IMG/VR virus record: IMGVR_UViG_3300017782_000049
Span: 1-41,521 of that record
Length of the DNA: 41,521 nucleotides
DNA from: a virus
Direction: 5' to 3' (one strand)
A program made the translations under genes and the position numbers. Shown here piece by piece: positions 1,024 to 35,846 of this stretch. The notes under the pieces were generated by a model, which saw nothing but the letters and a program-made list of their open reading frames with translations, did no database searches and was not told where the DNA came from. Numbering within the stretch: position 1 is the stretch's first letter; each line of letters starts with the position of its first letter.

Positions 1024-1259
1024 AAGAAAGTAAACTTTTAGAAATGCAAAACAAAATTAAGTCTTTGACTAATGTTGTTCAGCAATTATTATATGAAATA
1101 ACACATCTAAGGGAATTAAGTGTAGGAACTTTAGAAACTATAAAGTTAATGCCTGATTATCAAGATGCCATTGATGCTTTAAAAAAGCAAATGGAGGAAA
1201 AAAATAAAGAAATAAAAAAAGCAAAACAAAATGGAGCTATCGAACAAGATACTAAGTGA
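1020..1259 (+). CDS. Small coiled-coil protein upstream of nrdJ
   Basis: Protein of 79 residues, almost entirely helical with heptad-like leucines (LLEMQNKIKSLTNVVQQLLY), then VGTLETIKLMPDYQDAIDAL and a charged Lys/Glu tail. I recall similar proteins (LLELQNK..., TLETLKLMPGY) directly upstream of phage ribonucleotide reductases, but know no function. It may be an oligomerising accessory protein. The start shares ATGA with the preceding gene. The last 29 nt overlap the start of the reductase gene, so the two are probably translated in a coupled way. Confidence 0.7.
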   Translation: MKESKLLEMQNKIKSLTNVVQQLLYEITHLRELSVGTLETIKLMPDYQDAIDALKKQMEEKNKEIKKAKQNGAIEQDTK

Positions 1260-3093
1260 TATTACTGTTTATATGAAGTATGCTAAATACGTACCTGAAT
1301 TAAACAGAAGAGAAACATGGGAAGAGTTAGTAACTAGAAATAAGAACATGCATATCAAAAAATATCCTAAGCTTGTTGACGAAATTAATGCTGCTTACAA
1401 ATACGTGTATGAAAAGAAAGTTTTACCGTCTATGCGATCGTTACAGTTCGGAGGCAAACCTATTGAAATCTCGCCTAATAGAGTCTACAATTGTGCTTAT
1501 TTACCTATTGATAGCATTGAGTCTTTTAATGAAATAATGTTTTTACTACTTGGTGGTACGGGTGTAGGTTACTCTGTCCAACATCATCACGTGAATAAAT
1601 TACCATCAGTTAACCAGCCTTATAGTAAAAGAACTAGAAGGCATTTAATTGGTGATAGTATTGAAGGTTGGGCTGACGCAGTTAAAGTCTTAGTTAAGTC
1701 TTATATGGGTCCTAAGAGATCATCTAAGATAACATTTGATTATTCTGATATAAGACCAAAGGGTGCACAATTAGTTACATCTGGAGGTAAAGCTCCAGGT
1801 CCACAACCTTTAAAAGAGTGTATTGTGAAAGTAGCAGGAATTTTAAACGATGTGGAAGACGGAGATAAATTAACTACATTACAAGCTCACGACATTGTTT
1901 GTCACATTGCTGATGCTGTATTAGCAGGTGGTATACGTAGAGCAGCTTTAATTAGTTTATTTTCAGCAGATGATGAAGCAATGATCGGCTGTAAGTCTGG
2001 ACATTGGTGGGAAGAAGCGCCTCAAAGAGGAAGAGCAAATAATTCTGCTGTTCTTATGAGACATAAAATAAACAAAGGGTTTTTTATGGACTTATGGAAA
2101 AGAGTTGAGCGGTCAGGATCAGGTGAACCAGGTATTTACTTTAATAATGATAAAGACTGGGGAACTAATCCTTGTTGCGAAATAGCATTAAGACCATATC
2201 AGTTTTGTAACTTATGTGAGGTAAATGCTAGTGACATAAAAGATCAAACTGATTTTAACGATAGATGTAGAGTAGCTTCATTTATAGGTACATTACAAGC
2301 AGGTTATACTGACTTTCATTATTTAAGAGACATATGGAAAGATACGACAGAGAAGGACGCCCTTATAGGTGTATCAATGACAGGAATAGGCTCTGCCGCT
2401 GTGCTGCAGTTGGATATGACGGAAGCTGCAGATATAGTAGTAAGCAAAAACAAACAAACAGCTAAAAAAATAGGGATTAAACCAGCTGCAAGATGCACAA
2501 CCGTGAAGCCTGCTGGGACAACATCTCTGGCATTAGGAACTTCATCTGGTATTCATGCATGGCATAATGATTATTATGTGCGTAGAGTAAGGGTTGGTAA
2601 AAACGAAAGTATGTACAACTACTTACTTAATAATCACCCTGATTTAATTGAAGATGAGTATTTTAGACCTCATGATACAGCTGTAATTAGTATACCACAA
2701 AAGGCGCCTAAAGGTTCTATACTTAGAACTGAATCACCATTTGATTTACTTGAGCGTATAAAAAAAGTAGCAACTGAGTGGGTTCAACCAGGCCATAAGC
2801 GTGGTAGTAACACTCATAACGTTTCTGCTACAGTTAGTTTGAAAGCTGAGGAGTGGGATCAAGCAGGTAAATGGATGTGGGATAATAGAGACTATTATAA
2901 CGGGTTGTCTGTCCTACCTTATGATGGTGGTACTTATACTCAAGCGCCTTTTGAAGATATAGATAAATCTAAATACGAAACTATGATGAAGAGTTTAACT
3001 GACGTTAATCTCACTAACATAGTAGAGGTTGATGATGAAACTGATCTAGCCGGTGAATTAGCTTGCGCAGGAGGCGCGTGTGAAATAACATGA
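1231..3093 (+). CDS. nrdJ: Adenosylcobalamin-dependent class II ribonucleotide reductase, monomeric (RTPR type)
   Basis: Reduces ribonucleotides to deoxyribonucleotides for phage DNA synthesis, using a B12-derived radical, so it needs no oxygen and no separate radical subunit. The key residues of Lactobacillus-type RTPR are all visible: the reducible pair C88 (YNCAY) and C326 (QFCNL), the thiyl-radical cysteine C315 with E317 (N313-PCCEI), the VKPAGTTS loop, and a C-terminal CxxxxC shuttle at C612/C617 close to the end. The spacing of C315 to C326 (11 residues) equals that of C408 to C419 in RTPR. At 620 residues it is shorter than the 739-residue bacterial enzyme, as is usual for phage forms. 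The usual Gly after the radical Cys is Cys316, which I also recall in marine phage enzymes. The end shares ATGA with the next gene. Dependence on host-supplied cobalamin is implied. Confidence 0.95.
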   Translation: MELSNKILSDITVYMKYAKYVPELNRRETWEELVTRNKNMHIKKYPKLVDEINAAYKYVYEKKVLPSMRSLQFGGKPIEISPNRVYNCAYLPIDSIESFNEIMFLLLGGTGVGYSVQHHHVNKLPSVNQPYSKRTRRHLIGDSIEGWADAVKVLVKSYMGPKRSSKITFDYSDIRPKGAQLVTSGGKAPGPQPLKECIVKVAGILNDVEDGDKLTTLQAHDIVCHIADAVLAGGIRRAALISLFSADDEAMIGCKSGHWWEEAPQRGRANNSAVLMRHKINKGFFMDLWKRVERSGSGEPGIYFNNDKDWGTNPCCEIALRPYQFCNLCEVNASDIKDQTDFNDRCRVASFIGTLQAGYTDFHYLRDIWKDTTEKDALIGVSMTGIGSAAVLQLDMTEAADIVVSKNKQTAKKIGIKPAARCTTVKPAGTTSLALGTSSGIHAWHNDYYVRRVRVGKNESMYNYLLNNHPDLIEDEYFRPHDTAVISIPQKAPKGSILRTESPFDLLERIKKVATEWVQPGHKRGSNTHNVSATVSLKAEEWDQAGKWMWDNRDYYNGLSVLPYDGGTYTQAPFEDIDKSKYETMMKSLTDVNLTNIVEVDDETDLAGELACAGGACEIT

Positions 3094-3627: not shown

Positions 3628-6600
3628 TTATTTGTTCCTTTTTACAATAACTCTAACTCTATCAGCTTCAGTTTTCAAACTTTTAATTGCTGATTTAGAG
3701 AATCCCATATCTAAAAGTATTTCCACTTGCTCAGATTTGTTTAGCTTTTTAAGATTATCTTCATCAGTAGACTTTCTATATTTATCAATTAAAGCTTTTC
3801 TTTCTTTATCATACTGATCGTATCCTACTAATTCATTTTCAGGATATTTCTTCTTGTTAGCTTTTATTATTATTTCAACTCTTTTTCTTTCTGTTTTTAT
3901 ATTCTTAACAGCTTCTTCTGAGTATCCAGCTTTTATTAATATATCTTCTTGCTCTTCTTTATTTAGTTTTTCAACTTGTTTGTAGTTAGAAGATTTAGCT
4001 CTGTCCTCAGGCGTTAACTCAATAGTTTTCTTTTCATCTACTATCTGCCATTTAGGCCAACCACCAAGTAAAGCTACATCTTGCATAAAGTCAGTTTCTT
4101 CTGACATAGCTGCTTCCACATTATCGTACTTTTGTAAAGCTCTATCTAAAGGTATATTTGTAGTAGCTGATAAAACTCTAGCTCCAGCCATCGCTGCAGG
4201 ATTATTCAAGCTAAATCCCTTGTCAAATATTTCTTGTCTACGTTTTTTACTATCAAAAGCATAAGCAGCTGATCTTATTTTACTTATCTTAGATCCTATT
4301 GGTGGTGAAAATTGCATAAACTTCCAAGTTGCATCAACATACTCAGGTCTTTTTCTTTTTGATCTTTCGTATATATCCATTAAGAAGTTTTTGCCAACTG
4401 AAACAGCTTGTCCACCAAAGCCTAAACCTCTTAACTGAGAATCTAACATGTTATTAGCTGTTCTGTAGTAAGCTTTAGTTTTCTTATCTTCATCTTCGTC
4501 AAAACCAATTTTAAATAATGCTTGTTGTAAAGCGTTAAATATTAAGTTTTGTACAAAACCATAATAAGCTATTTTACTCATATTTGTTTTAGCATCTCCT
4601 CTACGGTTAACTAAATCTTGAAAAGCTCTCTTCTGTAATCTAGCGTACTGCATAGGTGTATTAGCAAACATTAATATTAAACGACCAGCATCACTAGCTT
4701 GTTGTTGAGATATTTTAGCTGGATTAGAAGACTGTTGGCTTTCTTCAGATAATTGCCTCCACTCCATTGAGGCTATCTCCTTAGCCTTTGCTTCTGTTAA
4801 ACCTTGATTTTTTCTAAGATCATTTATTCTATTCCTATAATACGTAGCTCCACCTGCAGCTATAGCAAAACTATCAGCATATTGTGTAGGTAAATATCCT
4901 TTCTTTAAAATATAAGCCATAACAGCTTTAGCTTTATTCTTACTAGTTGCAGCAGCATCAGATATTTCAGATTCAGTTATATTAAGCCTTAACCCATTAC
5001 GCCTGTCTTTTAAGTAATCAGAGTTCATTAATTCTAAAAAGTCTTTCCAGTATTGTGGTTGATTAGCAAATGCAGCTCCTGCTTTAAGCGGGTTGTTAAA
5101 ACTCCAATTAACATAGTTTATAGAAGATATTGTTTGAAGTATAGCTGATCTAGTATTAAAGAACATTATAGCAGCATTAGATCCATTTATATAGTCTAAT
5201 ATCTGGTTGTTAAGCTTGCTACTTTCTGAAACTCTGTTTCTACCAGACTTCATACGAGTTAAACTATTTTCAAGAGCTTTTCTATATTTAGGACCATATA
5301 TAGCTTCAAGCTTGTTTAAGTTAGCCTCGCTAAATATTATGTCTGTATTTTGTTTCCACTCTTCTAAATACTTAGCCCTTTTAGTAGTGCTAATTAAGTC
5401 TATTAAGTCTGTTGTTATAGTTCCTACTAACCAGCTTTCTCTAGGTGTAGCGTACCCATCTCCTTTTGTTAAAGATAATATTTGATCTCCAAATGCTTTT
5501 AGTTTTTTGTTTTTGTTAACTACATCTAATAGTTCTCCTAAATCAGTTTTGCTCAAGCCAAACTTAGTCATGTCTTGTCCTGTCTTATCAAACAAGTAAG
5601 CTCTAACTGCCTCTTCATTAGTAAAACCTGTTGAGTTCTTTTTTCTTAAATCTTTAGGAACATCAAGAACTTTCTTTAACTCTTTAAAATCAGACATTAA
5701 CTGAACTCTATCTTTAGATAAGTTATCCATAGCTCTTGAGTAAGGGTTTAAAAAGTTTTGTTTCCACCAAGCCATTTGTGAATCTCCAACTTTACCTTTG
5801 CCTAGTGTTTTATATAATAAACCTGTCATGTCTTCAGCAGAGTAAGGTATCCAAAACTTACCTTTGCCTTTGCTAGCACCTATTGTTTTAGCTTTAGCAG
5901 CTGAAAACTCTTTATAATATTCTATGCCAGTTTTATTTTCTAACATTTTATTAAAGTCTTGACTTAGCTTTGTTGATCTTGAAATTACAGCTTGCTGTAC
6001 TTTAGATTTAACATCTAGCACTGACATTGCTTTTTTAACAGCTTCCACATTAGCAACAGCATCATCTGCAAAGTAAAAATCGTTATAACCCTCAGCAGCT
6101 TTACCTACAAGCCACTGTGCTTTAGCTTCACCTTCAGACCTACCTAACCCTATTATGTTTTCTTTTTTAAACTCTAAACCTTCTGACTTTAAAAACTCGT
6201 ATATAGCTTCTCTAGCTTCAGGAGCTCTAGCTGTCAGCACGAATAAATCTTCATTACCTCTTGCAGCTTTTATTTTTTCAGCTACCTTAAATAAAGGACC
6301 ACGACCACCTTCTCTTACTATGTTAAAATCTGAAAAGTCCATAACAGCTCCAGCATCTATTAACTTTCTTCCATATTCTGCAAACTGATCAGCTGTTAAA
6401 ACTCCTCTTTCTGTTTTGTTTATTTTAGATTTAACCTCTGTAACAAACTCCTTAGGAAGTGCTTTTCCATACTCTATAGTTTCAGTATCTATTTCTATAA
6501 AATTATTTCCTAAATCTTCTTTGTACTTAGGTACATTTTCGTTAACTGATTTCTGTGTTTTTTCTACAATAAAATCTTTTAATGATCTTTCTTTTCTAGC

Positions 6601-9600
6601 TCTGTTTCTTTCAAGTGCTACTTCATTACTAGTTTTAGCATGTATCATATAAACATCATAGCCTTGCTCTTTAAGTTTATTAACTTTCTTCATCGTGGCA
6701 TTATAGCTAGCACCTGTGCCATCTATAACCATGCCATCTCCAGCTTGTCTATATTTTTCCATTTTAGCTTCAGCAGCTTTTCTACCGGCAGCACCTATTT
6801 TAGCTCTAGCGCTTCTTTGTTCCTTGTCGTAACCTGCCTCTGATTCAGGTAAACCTTGTTTAGCTTTTTCAGACTCTATAAATATGTCTTGATTAACTAC
6901 TTTCCAGCCTTCTCTTCCAAGTTCTAAACCTTTACCTATATTTGATTTACCAGACCCAGGTCCACCAATCATGAATATAGCTTTACGCTTAGGTGAAGTT
7001 TTACCAGGTGTATTAGGTTTGTTATAAAACACTAAACTTTTACTCGTTGCTAAAGTGTCATCTAAATCAAATACTCTAATTTTTTTAATAGTCTTATTGA
7101 TCTTATTAGCATTAGCTATAGCTTTATCATTTTCGCTTAGATCTTTTAATATTTCAAAATTAGTTTTCTTAGTTGACCTGCTTATAACATTTTCACTAGC
7201 ATTAAAATCTACAATATCTTTTTTGTTTTCAGCTAAAGCAACTTTTAAAAAGTCTCTACCCTCGAATTTACCTTCGTTTTTACCAACTCCTCTAATAGAT
7301 CTTAAATCTGGATGCCTTTTTGTTAGCTCATTGTAATACCTAGCTACAGCTCTTAAATCGCTTACAAACATGTTTTGCTGTAAGCCGAAATCTTTAAGAA
7401 TATTATCCATAGACTTAGGTATTATAGCTACTTCATAGTCTTTGAATATATCTGCTACAGCTTTTTCACCAGCTTTAGTAAGCTTACCATCTACAAAGTT
7501 AGCCTTATCAAAGAAAGTTTTAGTTAAATCTGTTATTACAAACTCAGCAGGTTTCATATGTTCAAAAACAAAGTAATCATCTACTAAAACCTGTTTGCCT
7601 TTTTTAGTTTCTAATACTTTTTTACCTTTTATACTACCTTCAAATATCCAACCAACAGGAGCCGCTGTTCTTAATATTGAACCCATTCCGCTTTTTAAAC
7701 TCATTGTCCAAACTGCAAAATCTTCCTTACTTAATCTACCCTCCTGTAAAGCCTTGGTATACCATGACATTTGATTTACTAGTTCTTTTCTAGCTTCAAC
7801 AGCTGTATCTCTACTATCTTGTAATTGTTTTTCTGTAAAGTCAGCTTCACCATCTTTAGATACTTCTGTTTTTCCTTTTACAGATTTTAAAGAAATGTCT
7901 TTTTCTGAATACTTATTACCTTCTAAGCTAAATATTTGTATACCGTCTTTTCTTAACTCTAGATCTGTTAGTCCAACTACACCAGTTTTAAAAACTCTTT
8001 CTTTAGCAGATTTTCTAACTCTCCTGTCTTCATAAAAATTAAAATCTAAATAAGTAGTATAACCAAAACTAGCAGCTATTTCATTTAACATTTGGGCATA
8101 CTCAACTTTTCCAGTGAAAAAGTTAAATCTATTTGTCCCGTCAGGTTGTAAAATTATCTCGCCAGTTATAGGATCTTTATAACCACCATCAACAATTTTA
8201 GAAGCATCATAGTGATGACTTCCAACTCTCATAGCTAATGCAATATTATTTTCTAAAGCTTTTGCTAAACCTACACCAGTCTCTAAACCACCAACACCAA
8301 ATGCTTCTTCTATTATTTTATCCTCTATATAGTCTCTAGCGGCATTTCTAAGTCTAGTAACAGTTTCAGACTCTGCAGCATGTTTGTTTTTACTTAAGCT
8401 TTCAGTTCCTAAAACTTTGTCTAAAGTTTTTTCAGTGTTAGTAATAGCATTTCTATCTATTATCCAGTCCATTTTAGAAGACTCTGTAAGGTCAGGATTT
8501 TCCGATGCATCAAATAGCTTAGAAAACCTCATAAATGTTTTAGCTAAATCGTTAGAAGTTTTAGTTTCTATATTACCTTTTTTATCTCTAGGAGTATTAA
8601 TAATAGATCCGTTTATTCTATTCATTTCGTTATCACCCTTTTGTAAGGCAATTTTTATTTCTTTAGCTAAAGCTTTCTCATCTTTAAATCTTACTTTATC
8701 TACGGCAGCAATTACATATGGTTGATATGTCTTTATGTAGTTATTAAAGTCCTCAGCATCTAAATCGAATATTCTCTTAGTTGATCTACTTATCTCAGCG
8801 CTAGCTATCTGACTTTTTAGTTTTTGTCTAAAATCACTTTGTAATTCTCTACCGGTTAGCTCAGTTAAATCTTTTAATCTAGAGTCTATAGCATCGTTAG
8901 TTCCAGATGATTCTAGTATCTGCTCTACGACAGCTTTACCCATCAATTGACCTGCTATGCCCTGTTTCCTTGTTTGTGCCTTAAAAGTCTCGAAAAAAGC
9001 TTTTTTATTAGCTGGCGAGTTAAAGTCAAACGTTGGGTTTATTCTTATAAATTCAGGTTGAGAAGTAACACCGTGTAGAGACTTTATCATTTTATCAGTA
9101 GTTTTACCAAACCAATCGCTAGTATATCGAGGTATAAAATCTACAGCTTTGCCACTAGCATCTTTTACCAGCTGTCCGCCAACAGACTTCTGAACCATAC
9201 CTTTAGGTAATGTTGTTGATCCTTTTTTATTAAACTCTCTAGCAGCTATATCACTAAAGTAAGAAGACTGTATGTTCTTAACTATTTTTTCAAAGTTTTC
9301 ATTGTAGTAGTTTTCTAAGCTTTTACCAGTGCCCATTGATTTATATATAGGTCCTTCTTTTATATCTCTACTTTGAACAACTTGCTTTCTTATGTCTCTT
9401 AAAAAGTTAGACATACTTTGATTAGGTCCTCCTACATTAGAAATATCTGATAGCTTATCAAATCTAATTTTTAAAGAAACCTCTTTTACATATTCACCAG
9501 TGTTTTGCTTTTCGTTATTTACTTCTACCTCTTTAGGTAACCCAGTTCTATCTATTATAGTTTTTGGCTTTTCACTTTTTACTTCTCTATCTTTAGCTAA

Positions 9601-12600
9601 AGCAATGTCAGTAGCTTCTTCTGGTGATATAAATCCAGACTCTAATGATTTTATTTCTCTAGAAGTTTCTTCTGGTGCTCTATCTAAAGATACCTCAGAT
9701 CCCTTCTTTATACCAAACTCACCTTTTAATACGTCTCCTTTTCTAAAATTAATTCTAGGCATTATGTATCCACCAAAAGAGTTATTTTGCTCAGGATTAA
9801 AACTTGCAATATCTTTAGCAAGTTTAGATCTAACCTCTTGCATAAAAGCTTCTTTACCTGCTTTTAAATTACTAGCTCCAATTTTAGAACCTATGTATTT
9901 ATTAAATATTTCTTTTATATTATTATTGTTTTTGCTTAATAAATCTCTAACAACTGACTCAGATTTCTTTTTCCATGCTTCGTTGCTAATGCTATACACG
10001 CCATCTCTTTTACCTCCTACTATACCATCAAGCTCTTTATTAGATCGCTGCATTTGCTCTTTAGACATATTAGGATCAAAATCTTTTAGCATTTGCTCAG
10101 CTTTAGCTTGAACTTCTGGGCTTGTATTGCCAAGCCTAACGCCTTGAGAAAACCTTTTAATAAATTCAAAAGCATCTGCACCTTTGCTAAAGTCTAAATT
10201 TTTAAAAGGAGTATTGCTCTCCATTAATATACTTATTTTTTCACCTGCTTTGCTAAATGAATTTTTAGATGCAAAAGTCCCACCAGCTATTACTTCAGAA
10301 GTTATAGCTACTACCTCTTTGTCAAACTCTCCTAAACCTCTATTGTTTAGTATTGAATCTACTTGTTCTTTAACACTGGCAGGTAAAGAGTTTTTAAATT
10401 CTTTTATAAAAGCTGTAGCTTTAGCTTTTGACATTTTGTCTAAAACATTATCAAATAACGGGTGTGTTATTTCATGTATATCTAAAGAAGTTGCATAAGT
10501 ATCATATGCATGCTTTTCGTTTATATATATAACGGGTTTACCAGATTTAGACTTCCCTAAGAAAAAACCTTGAGTATCGGATTCGTCTGTTTTTATCCCT
10601 TCTTCTACTAAAGCTTTTTTAAATTCGTCTGGGCCTAAAGGTTTGTATTCTACGTCTTTTAAGTTTACTCCGTCTCCATAAGTATCTAACACTTTTTGCT
10701 GTAAAGACTTTCTATTTTTATATGCTTCTTCTTTAGCAAAATTATTTGATGATTTTTCAATTTCTTCTATTGATTTTTTTAAAGAATTTATTTCACTAGA
10801 TCTATCTACTCCATCATCAATTGCCAACAACTCTCCTATTTGTTTCTTTTTATTACTTAAATCCCTAGCATAATCAAACCAAGTTGACATAGCTTTCGTG
10901 CCATCTTGTATACCACGCTCTCTACCTTGAATTATCCACTCATGCATCAAGCTTAGATTTCCTAATATCTCTGTTCTAGCCCTGTTGTTGCCAGAAAAAG
11001 GACCTCTTGGATCTAATATTATTCCAGCTGTTCTATCCATGTTAGGTACAGATAATGCTTTTATAGCTATATCTGTAGGTATTTCTGATCCATTAGCCAT
11101 CAATTTCCCAACAGCATACGTATCAGCCATTAATTGCTCTCCACCTTCATCTCTTAGGCTTGATTCAAATTCCTGAAGTTTTAACCCTTGCTTTAAATTG
11201 TATTTAGCAGTTTCTAAATCTTTCTTTCTTTTTTGTTGCTTTTCTGTTAAATTTTCTTGATCTAAACCTTCTTTTTTAATTAACTCTTCAAACCTAGACT
11301 CTACCTCAGCTTCAGAAAGCTCACTAAGTTCAAAACCATTAGCATCTTTAGTTTTTGATTTAAACTTATTTAACAAATCTAATGCTCTAGCACCACCACT
11401 AGCATTAGCGTTCATTTCACCTCTGTAAAAAGCTACGTCATTTTTAATAGCTCTTTTCATGTCTTGAAGACCTTTACTTAGGTTTACAGTACCAAGTGCT
11501 GCAACCATCATCCAAGTAGATACAAGGTTGTCTAGTTGAAGAATATCTACATTTCCATCTCCGTCTGTATCTAAATCATGACCAGCAAGTATAGTTTCAC
11601 CTAGCTGACCAGCTGTCATTACGCCAGTTCCAACAGTTGGCTTTGTAATTCCATTTACTATGTTGTTGAAAGTTTTAGAGCCTTTACTTAACTGATAATA
11701 AGCTTTCCTATACGATGGAGATTTCAACATCTTGTTAGTAGTTCCTTTTAACAAACTACCAGTTCCAGCAGCACCAATAGCAAACAAAGGATTCATTCTT
11801 TCCTCACCTAACGGTTCCATAACTTTATTTCTAGCTTCTATTACTGCAGCTTCTGTAGCGACAGCTGTAGTAAACTTAGCTATAGGCTTTTGGTATTTAC
11901 CAAGTCTTTTGCTGTTCATTATAGCTTTTTCAAAGAAGTTTTCCATTTGCTTTAGCTTCTGAGGACCTATAGCTTTTCTAGTATATCCAAATTCTAAAGC
12001 TATTTGAGCAAAACCTAATAAACCTTCACCTGTAGTTTGCTCTATAACACCTGGATTAATTTTATCTTCAATTTCTTTAGATCTTTCAGCTCCTAGTCTC
12101 TCTCTAGTAAAGTTATAAAACTGTTCCATCTCATCAGTTTTTCTTAGATCTTTATCTCTATAAGGAACACCTGGGCCACCTAAAGCTTTATTAACATCAC
12201 TTACTTTATCTACAACACTTTGACCAAATATATCTAAAAAGTTTACGTTCTCTTCCGCGTCTGTAGGTTTATAATTTAAAGCTATTGACCTTTGAACAAT
12301 CATTAATTGATCTAGCTTTTCATTATATTTTCTAGCTAATATGTCATTTTTATTAATATACTTTAGACCAGGAACAAGACCTCCTCCAGCCATGTTGCTT
12401 TTTCTTTGTAATGCAAACGGAGAGTCATCATCTTCAAATCTACCTAATTTACCAGCTAAATAAGCAACCTCATTTACAAGTTTATTTTCAGCAGTGTACA
12501 TTTCTTCTAACGTGCTGTCACCCCAAACTGATTCAGCTTGTGCACTTTTGTAAGATTCATTTTCCACATCATCACTAGAAGCTGAAGATCTTTTTATAAT

Positions 12601-13569
12601 TTTACCTTTAGTAGGATCATACCACTGGCTAGGAACACCATCTTCACTAAAGCTAACTAGTTCTTGGTTTCTTATTTCTTGTAGCTCTTTCTTATAAGAA
12701 GATATTTGTTTTAAGATTTCTTGCTGCTCTGATTGAGGAGCTTTTTTTAATTGAAGTAATGTTAACTCGTCTTTTAAAGACTGCAAGTTTCTATTTAGTT
12801 GACTTGCTTTTTGAGCTGGAACACTAGTGTAAGTCTCAGCTACCTCTATATTATTTAATATAACGTTTTGCTGAGCTTGATTTATTATTTTATTTGGTAT
12901 ATTAAAAGTACCGTCTTCGTTTTGTATAGAACTTCTTGATATTTTATTTTCGTATAATAACTTACCAATCTCTTTGTTTAATTCAAAAGTTTCTTGGTAT
13001 TGACCTCCTAAATAAACACCATAATCAACATTAGCTAACATTTTTTCATCTTGAAATATAGCTTCTGTATTTTTTTCCTCTTCAGTTTCAAATTCGTAAC
13101 CAAAATCCTCTATCAACTGCTTGCCTGCTTGCATTATAGGTTTAGTCATGAAAGGATCAATCTCTCCAGAAGACATTGGTTTGTCAAGTTTTATAAATTC
13201 AAAGCCTTCAGACGCTGGCTTACCTTGCATAACTGAGTTAGTGTTATCCCAGTTATTTAACCACCAGTTTTTACCTTCTAAACTTTGATTCCAATCTTCA
13301 TTATCACTAGAACCGTCTTGGTTAATTACAGGTTTCATAAACTCAGTGTATATAAACTTTTCATCTGGATCTAAATCTACGTCGTTATTCTCAGTAGTTA
13401 CCGGTTGTTTTTCTTCTTTGACTATTTCTGGCTTTGTTTCAGGTTTTACATTATACTGCATTACTTTAGCCTTGTTCTTAGCTAAGTAATCAGAAAAAGT
13501 TAAACCTTCTAAAGCGGCAAGTTCTTTAATTTGACTTTCAGAAAATGTTTCGCCGTTTATTTCGTACAT
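3628..13569 (-). CDS. Giant multidomain virion polyprotein-like protein (3313 aa)
   Basis: The last gene of the leftward structural operon and a quarter of the window. Order of recognisable parts: an N-terminal motif MYEINGETFSESQIKELAAL; an EF-hand-like loop DTDGDGNVDILQ at 667-678; an HExxH zinc-peptidase site H1032-E-I-T-H1036 with possible third ligand E1092; a region around NPEQNNSFGGYI...FRKGDVLK typical of these proteins; ISRSTK at 1593, 2129 and 2529; a HAD domain (D2168-L-D2170-D-T, VLTAR to 2448, FADD at 2500) with a P-loop kinase inserted (GGPGSGKS 2202-2209); a conserved C-terminal region (IPYSAEDMTGLLY, TPMQYARLQKRAF, ALLGGWPKWQI); and two C-terminal repeats. Similar large proteins are, as I recall, common and uncharacterised in marine podovirus-like phages. 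Position after the tail genes suggests an internal virion or ejected protein, as T7 gp15/gp16. Processing into pieces is inferred, not shown. Confidence 0.85.
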   Translation of the reverse strand: MYEINGETFSESQIKELAALEGLTFSDYLAKNKAKVMQYNVKPETKPEIVKEEKQPVTTENNDVDLDPDEKFIYTEFMKPVINQDGSSDNEDWNQSLEGKNWWLNNWDNTNSVMQGKPASEGFEFIKLDKPMSSGEIDPFMTKPIMQAGKQLIEDFGYEFETEEEKNTEAIFQDEKMLANVDYGVYLGGQYQETFELNKEIGKLLYENKISRSSIQNEDGTFNIPNKIINQAQQNVILNNIEVAETYTSVPAQKASQLNRNLQSLKDELTLLQLKKAPQSEQQEILKQISSYKKELQEIRNQELVSFSEDGVPSQWYDPTKGKIIKRSSASSDDVENESYKSAQAESVWGDSTLEEMYTAENKLVNEVAYLAGKLGRFEDDDSPFALQRKSNMAGGGLVPGLKYINKNDILARKYNEKLDQLMIVQRSIALNYKPTDAEENVNFLDIFGQSVVDKVSDVNKALGGPGVPYRDKDLRKTDEMEQFYNFTRERLGAERSKEIEDKINPGVIEQTTGEGLLGFAQIALEFGYTRKAIGPQKLKQMENFFEKAIMNSKRLGKYQKPIAKFTTAVATEAAVIEARNKVMEPLGEERMNPLFAIGAAGTGSLLKGTTNKMLKSPSYRKAYYQLSKGSKTFNNIVNGITKPTVGTGVMTAGQLGETILAGHDLDTDGDGNVDILQLDNLVSTWMMVAALGTVNLSKGLQDMKRAIKNDVAFYRGEMNANASGGARALDLLNKFKSKTKDANGFELSELSEAEVESRFEELIKKEGLDQENLTEKQQKRKKDLETAKYNLKQGLKLQEFESSLRDEGGEQLMADTYAVGKLMANGSEIPTDIAIKALSVPNMDRTAGIILDPRGPFSGNNRARTEILGNLSLMHEWIIQGRERGIQDGTKAMSTWFDYARDLSNKKKQIGELLAIDDGVDRSSEINSLKKSIEEIEKSSNNFAKEEAYKNRKSLQQKVLDTYGDGVNLKDVEYKPLGPDEFKKALVEEGIKTDESDTQGFFLGKSKSGKPVIYINEKHAYDTYATSLDIHEITHPLFDNVLDKMSKAKATAFIKEFKNSLPASVKEQVDSILNNRGLGEFDKEVVAITSEVIAGGTFASKNSFSKAGEKISILMESNTPFKNLDFSKGADAFEFIKRFSQGVRLGNTSPEVQAKAEQMLKDFDPNMSKEQMQRSNKELDGIVGGKRDGVYSISNEAWKKKSESVVRDLLSKNNNNIKEIFNKYIGSKIGASNLKAGKEAFMQEVRSKLAKDIASFNPEQNNSFGGYIMPRINFRKGDVLKGEFGIKKGSEVSLDRAPEETSREIKSLESGFISPEEATDIALAKDREVKSEKPKTIIDRTGLPKEVEVNNEKQNTGEYVKEVSLKIRFDKLSDISNVGGPNQSMSNFLRDIRKQVVQSRDIKEGPIYKSMGTGKSLENYYNENFEKIVKNIQSSYFSDIAAREFNKKGSTTLPKGMVQKSVGGQLVKDASGKAVDFIPRYTSDWFGKTTDKMIKSLHGVTSQPEFIRINPTFDFNSPANKKAFFETFKAQTRKQGIAGQLMGKAVVEQILESSGTNDAIDSRLKDLTELTGRELQSDFRQKLKSQIASAEISRSTKRIFDLDAEDFNNYIKTYQPYVIAAVDKVRFKDEKALAKEIKIALQKGDNEMNRINGSIINTPRDKKGNIETKTSNDLAKTFMRFSKLFDASENPDLTESSKMDWIIDRNAITNTEKTLDKVLGTESLSKNKHAAESETVTRLRNAARDYIEDKIIEEAFGVGGLETGVGLAKALENNIALAMRVGSHHYDASKIVDGGYKDPITGEIILQPDGTNRFNFFTGKVEYAQMLNEIAASFGYTTYLDFNFYEDRRVRKSAKERVFKTGVVGLTDLELRKDGIQIFSLEGNKYSEKDISLKSVKGKTEVSKDGEADFTEKQLQDSRDTAVEARKELVNQMSWYTKALQEGRLSKEDFAVWTMSLKSGMGSILRTAAPVGWIFEGSIKGKKVLETKKGKQVLVDDYFVFEHMKPAEFVITDLTKTFFDKANFVDGKLTKAGEKAVADIFKDYEVAIIPKSMDNILKDFGLQQNMFVSDLRAVARYYNELTKRHPDLRSIRGVGKNEGKFEGRDFLKVALAENKKDIVDFNASENVISRSTKKTNFEILKDLSENDKAIANANKINKTIKKIRVFDLDDTLATSKSLVFYNKPNTPGKTSPKRKAIFMIGGPGSGKSNIGKGLELGREGWKVVNQDIFIESEKAKQGLPESEAGYDKEQRSARAKIGAAGRKAAEAKMEKYRQAGDGMVIDGTGASYNATMKKVNKLKEQGYDVYMIHAKTSNEVALERNRARKERSLKDFIVEKTQKSVNENVPKYKEDLGNNFIEIDTETIEYGKALPKEFVTEVKSKINKTERGVLTADQFAEYGRKLIDAGAVMDFSDFNIVREGGRGPLFKVAEKIKAARGNEDLFVLTARAPEAREAIYEFLKSEGLEFKKENIIGLGRSEGEAKAQWLVGKAAEGYNDFYFADDAVANVEAVKKAMSVLDVKSKVQQAVISRSTKLSQDFNKMLENKTGIEYYKEFSAAKAKTIGASKGKGKFWIPYSAEDMTGLLYKTLGKGKVGDSQMAWWKQNFLNPYSRAMDNLSKDRVQLMSDFKELKKVLDVPKDLRKKNSTGFTNEEAVRAYLFDKTGQDMTKFGLSKTDLGELLDVVNKNKKLKAFGDQILSLTKGDGYATPRESWLVGTITTDLIDLISTTKRAKYLEEWKQNTDIIFSEANLNKLEAIYGPKYRKALENSLTRMKSGRNRVSESSKLNNQILDYINGSNAAIMFFNTRSAILQTISSINYVNWSFNNPLKAGAAFANQPQYWKDFLELMNSDYLKDRRNGLRLNITESEISDAAATSKNKAKAVMAYILKKGYLPTQYADSFAIAAGGATYYRNRINDLRKNQGLTEAKAKEIASMEWRQLSEESQQSSNPAKISQQQASDAGRLILMFANTPMQYARLQKRAFQDLVNRRGDAKTNMSKIAYYGFVQNLIFNALQQALFKIGFDEDEDKKTKAYYRTANNMLDSQLRGLGFGGQAVSVGKNFLMDIYERSKRKRPEYVDATWKFMQFSPPIGSKISKIRSAAYAFDSKKRRQEIFDKGFSLNNPAAMAGARVLSATTNIPLDRALQKYDNVEAAMSEETDFMQDVALLGGWPKWQIVDEKKTIELTPEDRAKSSNYKQVEKLNKEEQEDILIKAGYSEEAVKNIKTERKRVEIIIKANKKKYPENELVGYDQYDKERKALIDKYRKSTDEDNLKKLNKSEQVEILLDMGFSKSAIKSLKTEADRVRVIVKRNK
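3631..3966 (-). repeat. Two diverged 38-residue repeats at the C-terminus of the giant protein
   Basis: Residues 3202-3239 (codons 3853-3966) and 3276-3313 (codons 3631-3744) align without gaps as LNKxEQxxIL...G(Y/F)SxxA(V/I)Kx(I/L)KTExxRVxxI(I/V)KxNK, roughly half identical. They are joined by a charged linker of about 36 residues. The pattern suggests a small helical binding unit of SAP/HeH or UBA-like kind; the exact fold is uncertain. Confidence 0.75.
6040..7090 (-). other. HAD phosphatase domain with inserted P-loop kinase domain
   Basis: Domain-level note inside the giant protein (about residues 2160-2510). HAD motif I (FDLDDT, 2167-2172, DxDxT form) is followed at once by a complete P-loop kinase: Walker A GGPGSGKS 2202-2209, VVNQDIF with a candidate catalytic Asp, VIDGTGA, and an arginine-rich lid (ERNRARKERSL). 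The remaining HAD motifs come only after it: FVLTAR 2443-2448 and FADDAVANVEAV from 2500. The kinase resembles zeta-toxin/polynucleotide kinase folds. The HAD plus kinase pairing recalls T4 Pnkp, where the two are side by side rather than nested. Confidence 0.75.
10290..10476 (-). other. HExxH metallopeptidase-like site in giant protein
   Basis: Codons 1032-1036 read HEITH, in the context DIHEITHPLFDNVLDKM, preceded by a GKPVIYINEKHAYD strand-like segment. This is the zincin signature: two His bind zinc and Glu is the general base. About 55 residues later EVVAITSEVIAGG offers Glu1092 (or Glu1085) as third ligand, a gluzincin-type arrangement. It may be a protease that processes this protein or attacks host proteins after ejection; neither is proved by the sequence. 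Confidence 0.6.
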
Positions 13570-13575
13570 GTAGTA

Positions 13576-15672
13576 TTATTTTATAAAACTTTGTAATGGA
13601 AGCTTTTCACCGTTAGCCACGGCATTTATGTATGGTAAAACTATTTGTTGGTATGCATCGTAAAAGTCATATCTTTGAGAAGCTGTTGTAGCTTTGTCAG
13701 TAAATAAATCTTTTAGAGTTATTCCAATTGGGTTTCCTTCGTGTGTTAGTTCTAGATCAGCAAATTGAGGATAATTTTTAGCTCTGTTTATTATTGATAT
13801 TATGTCCTGCATTAAAGGAGCAGCACCAGTCATTTTAAATAAACCTTCTTGTTCTCTTACACCTTTACCATAATCTTTGTTTAAAAATGGATTTATAGGA
13901 TACATTATACTTTCGTCTCCTCCTGAATATCTATCAAAAACACCTTTACCAAAAAGTGCTTTTAAATTTTGTTGTCCTGAATCTGCTGAGTCAGCTTTTT
14001 GAAACGTTCCATTTCCTAATCCACGCATAACTTGTGTTGTTGTAAATACAGGTCTACCAACTTGATCAGTTGAGCTTTGGAATTCTTTTACTAAATTTAC
14101 AGCTGTTGTGGTATTTTTACTTACAGCACTTTTTGTAGCTACACTACTATTGTAGCCTTTTTCTAAGTTGTCTAAATAAGATTCTATTTCAGGACCAAAC
14201 TTCATGTTGTCTTTACTGTTAAACTTACCTCCTTCTAAATATTCTATAAAGTTTCTATATCCTTTACCATTACCTAAATTAAATACTGTTCCAGGTTCTT
14301 TAACTTGTGTAACTTCTTCACCATCGTCATTAAAAACTTGCTCAGTCACTCTACCTATATATACTTTAACATCATCACCAGATTTTTCTATAGTAGCGTT
14401 TGCCAGCTTTTTATTATAATTTTCTTTATAAGTTTCAAATTTTTCTTGAAGTTCACCAGGAGTAGAAGATGTTAAATCTTCAACCATAGGGTTTATGTCG
14501 TCATTAACGTCTCCAACAAATTTATCAAAAGTAGTATTTCCAACTACAGGATTGTTTTTATTATTAGAACCTCTAGGAGAGCTAGGTTTGTATATTTTAG
14601 GATCACCAACTATAGACTCATCTCTTTCAGTACCGTTTAACTTTCTAACCATATCTACTGATTCTTGAGCTAGCATTTGTCTCATTTCAGCCTTTTGAGC
14701 ATCAGACCCAGTCCACTCAGTGTCTTGCTCTAGCACATCTGCCCAATAAACTTTACTATAAATAGGATCTTCAGCCATTTTCTTTATAGTTGTATCAGTT
14801 TTAGCTATTTCATCTACTAAACCTTCCATAGCCTTAGTGTTAACTTTTAATGTAGAATAATTAACGCCTCCATTGTCTGTCTTAGTATAAGAGTAAAAAT
14901 CAGTACTTAAAGTTTTATCATTGTCTACACCACCAAGCCTAGATTTAGCATAAGAGGTTAATCTATCTTTGTATTCAGGAACTCGTAAAAACATATCTCT
15001 ATCAGAGTCTTTAGCTACAAGATATTCGTCAACATTAAATACAGTTCCGTTTTTATCTTTTAATATTGTTTGACCTAAATCATTAGAAATTATACCAACA
15101 CCGCTTTCACCGTTCACCCAGTCTTGTAGAAGTTTAGCCTCATTTAAGTTCATGTTAGTAACACTTATTGCATTTTCTTCACCTATTCCAAATCTTAACG
15201 ATTCTTTGAGTTCTATAGCTTCTGCAGCAGCCTCTGACATACCGGTTGTATAAGTATCAATAGAGTTACTTATATTTGTTATCATTTTAGCGCCAACAAC
15301 AGGGTCTATATATCCTTCTTCACCTGGAAGTTTTTGCATGCCTTGTCTTATTTTTACAACTTCATTTATTTGGTTGTTCCAATAGTCGTTTTGCTTGCCT
15401 TGAAATGTTTCACCGCCTCCTTTTACACTAGATACCTTGTCAAACATTTTACCAGCTAAAGCAGCGTCTTGCTTTTGTAAGTCTAGTATTGCTTTTCTAT
15501 TAGCATCTCTAGCAGCCTTAACTTCTTTCATTCTAATTCTTTCTTCTCTCTGTCTGGTTATTTCAGTATTACTAATATTAGCCATCTCCTGACCAATGTT
15601 AGGTAGTCTGGGAGTGGATATTTTACCTCCGTAAGAAGAGCCTTTGTAAGCGTTTGATGCTGTTACTGCCAT
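13576..15672 (-). CDS. Internal virion-like protein (698 aa)
   Basis: Not confidently assigned to a named family. The first 80 residues hold a Gly/Ser segment (AYKGSSYGGKISTPRLP) and a charged coiled coil (TRQREERIRMKEVKAARDAN). The middle is mixed alpha/beta with many Asp/Thr, and the C-terminal third contains GKGVFDRYSGGDESIMYPIN and a hydrophobic ending (YQQIVLPYINAVANGEKLP). No signal peptide is evident. It lies between a gp14-like protein and the giant protein. In T7-like phages that position holds gp15, which forms the ejected channel, so an internal or ejection protein is the best guess. The gap to the giant gene is 6 nt, indicating co-translation. Confidence 0.6.
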   Translation of the reverse strand: MAVTASNAYKGSSYGGKISTPRLPNIGQEMANISNTEITRQREERIRMKEVKAARDANRKAILDLQKQDAALAGKMFDKVSSVKGGGETFQGKQNDYWNNQINEVVKIRQGMQKLPGEEGYIDPVVGAKMITNISNSIDTYTTGMSEAAAEAIELKESLRFGIGEENAISVTNMNLNEAKLLQDWVNGESGVGIISNDLGQTILKDKNGTVFNVDEYLVAKDSDRDMFLRVPEYKDRLTSYAKSRLGGVDNDKTLSTDFYSYTKTDNGGVNYSTLKVNTKAMEGLVDEIAKTDTTIKKMAEDPIYSKVYWADVLEQDTEWTGSDAQKAEMRQMLAQESVDMVRKLNGTERDESIVGDPKIYKPSSPRGSNNKNNPVVGNTTFDKFVGDVNDDINPMVEDLTSSTPGELQEKFETYKENYNKKLANATIEKSGDDVKVYIGRVTEQVFNDDGEEVTQVKEPGTVFNLGNGKGYRNFIEYLEGGKFNSKDNMKFGPEIESYLDNLEKGYNSSVATKSAVSKNTTTAVNLVKEFQSSTDQVGRPVFTTTQVMRGLGNGTFQKADSADSGQQNLKALFGKGVFDRYSGGDESIMYPINPFLNKDYGKGVREQEGLFKMTGAAPLMQDIISIINRAKNYPQFADLELTHEGNPIGITLKDLFTDKATTASQRYDFYDAYQQIVLPYINAVANGEKLPLQSFIK

Positions 15673-35537: not shown

Positions 35538-35846
35538 TTATTCTTTATCGTAAGCTTCTTTTTCCCATGGTAAAGACTTGCAGCCTTCTTTCATTTCAGC
35601 TCTTGAATATTTCTTACCTTTCCACACGACGTAATCATCGTCGTAAGTTAAATCACCTCTTTCTATTTGATCTAAATGTACTTTTTCGTGATCACAAACT
35701 TTTTTTATCAATTTAGGATCTGTAACCTCACAGTTTAAACTTATACTTCCAGACTTGTTAGCTCTTCCTAACACATCTTCTGTTTCTTTAGTTAAGTAAA
35801 CAGGTGTGTTGTCTATTTCGTAAGGTGGTTTTATTTTAAATGCCAT
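35538..35846 (-). CDS. Small HExxH metallopeptidase-like protein
   Basis: Protein of 102 residues. CDHEKVHLDQIERGD places H53-E54 and H57 in an HExxH zinc site, and LPWEKEAYDKE near the end supplies E95 or E97 as a possible third ligand. Between them lies YDDDYVVWKGKKYSRAEMKE. I recall this combination (HExVHxDQxxRGDLxYDD...WKGKKY...LPWEKEAY) from short proteins of unknown function in many marine and crAss-like phages. It has no signal peptide. It would be one of the smallest zincin-like proteins and might act on cell wall, on virion proteins, or be inactive. Confidence 0.65.
   Translation of the reverse strand: MAFKIKPPYEIDNTPVYLTKETEDVLGRANKSGSISLNCEVTDPKLIKKVCDHEKVHLDQIERGDLTYDDDYVVWKGKKYSRAEMKEGCKSLPWEKEAYDKE

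Follow-up and report, generated by a model that had tools for sequence, protein, structure and literature searches.

We found that the hexapeptide ISRSTK, which occurs three times in a giant protein of an uncultivated, podophage-like virus, is a conspicuous instance of a broader pattern. As judged from the sequences of its relatives, the peptides at the borders between modules (seams) differ between phages and agree within one phage. We lean towards the view that the seams are processing sites of a polyvalent protein, recognised by one factor per phage, probably a protease.

The giant protein and its repeated peptide

The DNA analysed (the window) is the whole stretch of 41,521 nucleotides. 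It is a marine phage contig whose minus strand bears structural genes, and two IMG/VR contigs are 100% identical to it over the part compared. Its terminase (TerL) is 64% identical to that of the environmental podovirus MW202828 and 38-46% identical to those of flavobacterial phages (Elemovirus, Cellulophaga phi19:3). The giant is the last gene of the structural block. Syntenic giants occupy the same slot in MW202828 (3859 aa), Elemovirus (3694 aa) and phi19:3 (1871 aa), and those of Elemovirus and phi19:3 are annotated as structural. In cultured relatives only the HAD/kinase part of the giant was matched; the other parts had no match. The gene immediately upstream of the giant (13576-15672, minus strand) is hypervariable, with a BLAST match in 1 of 29 relatives, whereas core structural genes were matched in all 29. 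On the opposite strand, 1231-3093 (plus) encodes a 620-aa protein that we take to resemble a class II ribonucleotide reductase. The giant and its parts are as follows.

3628..13569, minus strand: giant multidomain protein, 3313 aa (open reading frame)
10153..10647, minus strand: zincin-type metallopeptidase domain, residues ~975-1139 (invariant H, E, H, E; AF2 model)
10462-10476, minus strand: HEITH, residues 1032-1036, zincin active-site motif, with E1085 as third ligand
10036..10053, minus strand: site A, MQRSNK, residues 1173-1178, a looser copy 141 residues after HExxH (family-wide enrichment; low pLDDT)
8794..10035, minus strand: module A-B, residues 1179-1592, between sites, no Pfam match
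8776..8793, minus strand: site B, ISRSTK, residues 1593-1598, exact copy
7186..8775, minus strand: module B-C, residues 1599-2128, with a near-invariant EHxxPA in homologues
7168..7185, minus strand: site C, ISRSTK, residues 2129-2134, exact copy at the edge of a disordered stretch and the HAD module
5995..7092, minus strand: HAD domain with P-loop kinase insert (kinase ~6517-6999), T4 PNK-like (Pfam, PHROG, Foldseek)
5968..5985, minus strand: site D, ISRSTK, residues 2529-2534, exact copy where pLDDT drops below 50
3631..5967, minus strand: C-terminal module, residues 2535-3313, whose FNKxLE start is the family anchor

The three copies lie where the preliminary description had placed them, and the six reading frames of the window contain no further ISRSTK. 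From composition, 0.00025 copies were expected. ISRSTK is the sole hexamer that occurs three times in the giant, and none of 300 shuffles contained any triple hexamer, which rules out a chance repeat. The HAD-kinase unit does sit between the second and third copies, with DLDDT at residue 2167 and the P-loop GGPGSGKS at 2202. The looser copy, MQRSNK, is at the position that site A takes in relatives.

The HAD-kinase unit matched AAA_33 and Zeta_toxin in Pfam, polynucleotide kinase among the PHROGs, and T4 PNK and zeta toxin in Foldseek. It is like T4 polynucleotide kinase/phosphatase in combining a P-loop kinase with a HAD phosphatase fold. In contrast to T4 PNK, the kinase of the giant is an insert of ~200 aa within the HAD domain, between the first HAD motif and the remainder, and it is missing from most relatives, whose HAD domain stands by itself. 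We regard the kinase as an insert because kinase-less relatives have 163 residues from the HAD motif to site D, compared to ~362. Two other features were seen in the modules. The EHxxPA of module B-C may mark an unrecognised enzyme. Near the C-terminus of the giant (3628-3960, minus strand) there are two copies of a helical stretch, LNKEEQEDILIKAGYSEEAVKNIKT... and LNKSEQVEILLDMGFSKSAIKSLKT..., and UBA was a weak match.

AF2 models suggest that sites A, C and D are in flexible linkers. In the model of residues 2040-2640 (mean pLDDT 70.5; shallow alignment), site C is at the boundary of a disordered stretch with the HAD domain; site D is where the HAD domain stops and confidence drops. In that of residues 930-1217 (mean pLDDT 65.6; shallow alignment), site A falls in a region of low confidence behind the zincin, whose residues 1030-1139 have pLDDT of ~80-93.

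Agreement of seam peptides within genomes

We used the conserved FNKxLE stretch right behind the third ISRSTK copy as a family anchor and scanned viral contigs for it. This gave a first set of 86 non-redundant giants and a second set of 92 further ones. The peptide that precedes FNKxLE (site D) is highly variable: KFSKS, MNASEK, MQKSNT, IKQSKQ, LNESKN, NRNSVD and others. The general form of the seam peptides is hydrophobic-x-x-Ser-x-x, and in 102 of 116 sites the fourth residue is serine. It is conceivable that this near-constant serine is phosphorylated or otherwise modified, a reading that we consider most improbable: there is no protein-kinase match in the giant, and the P-loop insert is absent from most relatives.

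When site-D hexamers of the first set were matched against the giants, the second match was better in the giant of the hexamer's own genome than in giants from elsewhere (z=6.6; none of 10,000 permutations of genomes, a statistic that ignores kinship among the genomes). The matches map to fixed places: A ~140 aa after HExxH, B 450-700 aa after HExxH, and C ~45 aa before the HAD motif. We then compared the site-D hexamer with windows defined by position, which for A and C were set by HExxH and the HAD motif alone and were picked after viewing 24 genomes. Among the 86 giants, z was 8.8 for C and 7.0 for A. Five control windows were not or barely significant; one had z=2.1, which vanished once repeated hexamers were removed. 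With distinct hexamers only, z=8.0 and 6.0 were retained. For genomes held out from the 24 that had been viewed, z was 3.8 and 3.7 for the A/C windows. In the second set of 92, the signal was strong at A (z=5.5) and weak at C (z=2.1), and the controls were flat.

The enrichment is sharply local, as determined with sliding windows. Outside the four sites, the only signal was a weak one within HAD (z=2.1). There was no enrichment of the own motif N-terminal to the zincin or C-terminal to D, and an ISRSS at residue 210 of the window's giant is therefore probably chance. Two or more clear copies were present in 45 of 86 genomes. When A was compared with C without the anchor, a control pair scored as well. 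A subgroup with a DRVKK-type site D (L057, L058, L065, L068, L070, L072, L073 and L095) had no concerted pattern and looks as if it had lost the site. The preliminary description had proposed searching for the motif in other proteins of the phage; in 15 other gene families of the same genomes there was no convincing enrichment of the own motif, compared to z=5 for the giant there. It had also proposed aligning homologues, and here its expectation held: the motif is kept at the borders while the domains vary, with HAD present with or without the kinase insert, HAD absent, or the zincin replaced.

The agreement is at the level of the peptide. The preliminary description had argued for selection on the peptide from the different codons of the three copies. 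These are ATA AGT AGA TCA ACT AAG in copy 1, ATA AGC AGG TCA ACT AAG in copy 2 and ATT TCA AGA TCA ACA AAG in copy 3. The 18-mers do differ, but the window alone is weak evidence since four of the six codons are identical in copies 1 and 2, and TCA and AAG recur in every copy. It is the family-wide codon test that bears the claim out. Over 48 site pairs, the same codon was used at 119 of 206 matching residues, compared to 116.5 expected from codon usage, and 26 of the 56 serine cases involved a switch from TCN to AGY or the reverse. That codon agreement only equals the expectation from codon usage indicates selection on the peptide, and it rules out DNA duplication or gene conversion as the source of the copies. 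That is, they are not recent DNA duplicates.

This result also bears on whether the seams are simply tolerated linkers where modules swap, in which case their likeness would reflect exchange or duplication and not recognition. Module exchange was seen at a seam. L040 and L010 have the zincin module in common up to FSKS, beyond which the two are unrelated; from FSKS onward L040 is 95% like L036, to which it is unrelated before FSKS. Blocks with at least 75% identity between pairs had their ends near FSK-like motifs in 28% of cases, compared to 10% for random points, a figure possibly inflated by blocks that start near D. A stricter test, of breakpoints (BLAST ends) at own-motif sites, gave no significant enrichment. 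A generic seam could do without motifs that differ among phages, and with codon agreement only at expectation we disfavour this explanation and consider it unlikely. We also looked at natural splits of the gene as possible breaks at the motif. The split ORFs L221 and L258 break elsewhere and look like frameshifts.

The preliminary description had offered two readings of the motif, cleavage sites or fixed linkers. We regard its interpretation as partly supported. The position at borders, the selection on the peptide and the agreement within a phage match the expectation for recognised processing sites; fixed linkers without a recogniser are disfavoured because a linker has no need of a lineage-specific sequence.

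Candidate readers of the peptide

The zincin embedded in the giant is the obvious candidate protease. H1032, E1033, H1036 and E1085 are its only invariant columns (25 and 35 homologues), in a domain that is otherwise ~18% identical, and site A follows it at a constant distance. A fold search with the zincin model gave weak matches to zincin catalytic domains amid unrelated helical ones. A candidate protease, as the preliminary description called for, is present within the giant itself, but the type of motif does not track the zincin sequence, and zincins are swapped between relatives with no change of motif. The possibility that the zincin sets the motif was rejected by a partial Mantel test and by regression (relatedness allowed for), and swap pairs keep their motif. 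Close relatives with unrelated zincins have the same motif (L004/L010, L042/L047 and L036/L040). In L012 and L038, EELFH replaces HExxH, with loss of the first His, and the KFSK motifs are retained. The failure of motif similarity to track zincin similarity and these two degenerate domains speak against the seams being processing sites, as do the roughly half of the 86 genomes with fewer than two clear copies, the DRVKK subgroup among them.

We compared variation of the motif with that of 15 other genes in 30 genomes, with TerL as baseline. No single gene stood out. The motif covaried with p260 (p=0.003), scaffold (p=0.004), the zincin (p=0.006) and MCP (p=0.012), and also, like the zincin, with the N-terminus of the giant.

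The main rival to processing is that the seams are docking sites, at which the copies bind one partner responsible for packing or threading the giant (such as scaffold, portal or an ejection protein), with co-evolution keeping the copies alike. Docking would account for the concerted change, the position in linkers and the independence from the zincin, and the covariation with scaffold, p260 and MCP is as expected for such a partner. However, the covariation tests were many and poorly separated, and the giant's own N-terminus and the zincin score alike. A dock also need not be exactly at module edges or bracket every module. We consider docking possible and of rather low probability.

A second zincin-like protein is encoded elsewhere in the window:

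35538..35846, minus strand: stand-alone 102-aa zincin-like protein, HEKVH...E (H53, E54, H57 and E95 invariant)

It has no Pfam match and was found in 189 viral contigs and in 26 of 30 giant-bearing records. Its invariant HExxH...E and this wide occurrence would suit a protease that cuts the giant in trans. We doubt this role. The protein is more conserved than the variation of the motif would suggest, its covariation with the motif gave only p=0.052, and it may serve lysis, as its neighbours are a holin-like ORF and a gene for an amidase.

A broader version, in which a trans-acting phage factor reads the lineage-specific seam peptide of a modular polyprotein throughout a large family of uncultivated marine phages, is a tentative suggestion that we hold with less confidence than processing as such. 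In that case modules, including the zincin, could be swapped as long as they take on the local peptide.

Proposed processing of a polyvalent protein, and known systems

We favour the following model of processing. The giant would be delivered with the virion, as an N-terminal part ending in the zincin followed by modules A-B and B-C, the HAD(-kinase) module and the C-terminal module. Seams A-D each carry a short peptide whose letters are fixed by the phage lineage, and a single factor per phage would recognise all of them. The copies would change together because one factor reads every seam. Recognition would most likely be proteolytic, with products of ~132, 47, 61, 44 and 89 kDa. The cleavage, its timing and a phage-encoded protease, either the embedded zincin or one acting in trans, are the predicted parts of this model.

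Processing of polyvalent proteins by zincins has been predicted (Iyer et al. 2017, PMC5512222), and no site motif for it appears in the searched portion of that text. By its sequence features the giant resembles these proteins, and its carriage in the virion and injection are predicted from the structural annotation of syntenic proteins. Like the polyvalent proteins with a zincin MPTase, it is a large multidomain chain with an embedded HExxH...E and nucleic-acid-type enzymes, encoded within the structural region. At least two unrelated domains are present in one large protein (zincin, HAD and P-loop kinase), and the HExxH and downstream Glu of an MPTase are among the invariant columns, with a weak fold match. 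Unlike those proteins, the giant offers candidate site sequences, a lineage-specific motif at its borders, and an LPD domain above cut-off was not found in it (LPD14, E=0.31).

Other systems share parts of this arrangement. DdrB of P1 is also a polyvalent protein with an MPTase and is processed prior to packaging (PMC5512222); processing is known for DdrB and is only inferred for the giant. N4 vRNAP is likewise a giant virion protein of ~3500 aa with flexible linkers and an HExxH domain (PMC12633501, PMC5512222). In contrast to the giant, in which Pfam and PHROGs found no RNA polymerase, it has that enzyme. N4 vRNAP is packaged unprocessed despite its HExxH (PMC5512222), which argues against processing. 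As in a self-processed polyprotein, the giant has an embedded protease (degenerate in two relatives, as above) and a common border site sequence; that the site sequence tracks the embedded protease had one weak positive, the covariation, and was otherwise not found. A site shared by several virion proteins, as for a T4-type prohead protease, was not found among the 15 other gene families. Phages of Elemovirus and Baltivirus have giant structural proteins in the same slot after the structural genes, and the one in Elemovirus has HEIFH, but the repeated border motif was not found in them and module homology was not detectable. Nothing closer than PMC5512222 and PMC12633501 emerged from literature searches that covered giant proteins of phages and crAss-like polyproteins.

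Candidate cut sites, which evolve in concert, can now be named for dozens of phages, and the prediction of 2017 thereby becomes directly testable. The uncoupling of the motif from the embedded zincin suggests that a further recogniser may be involved.
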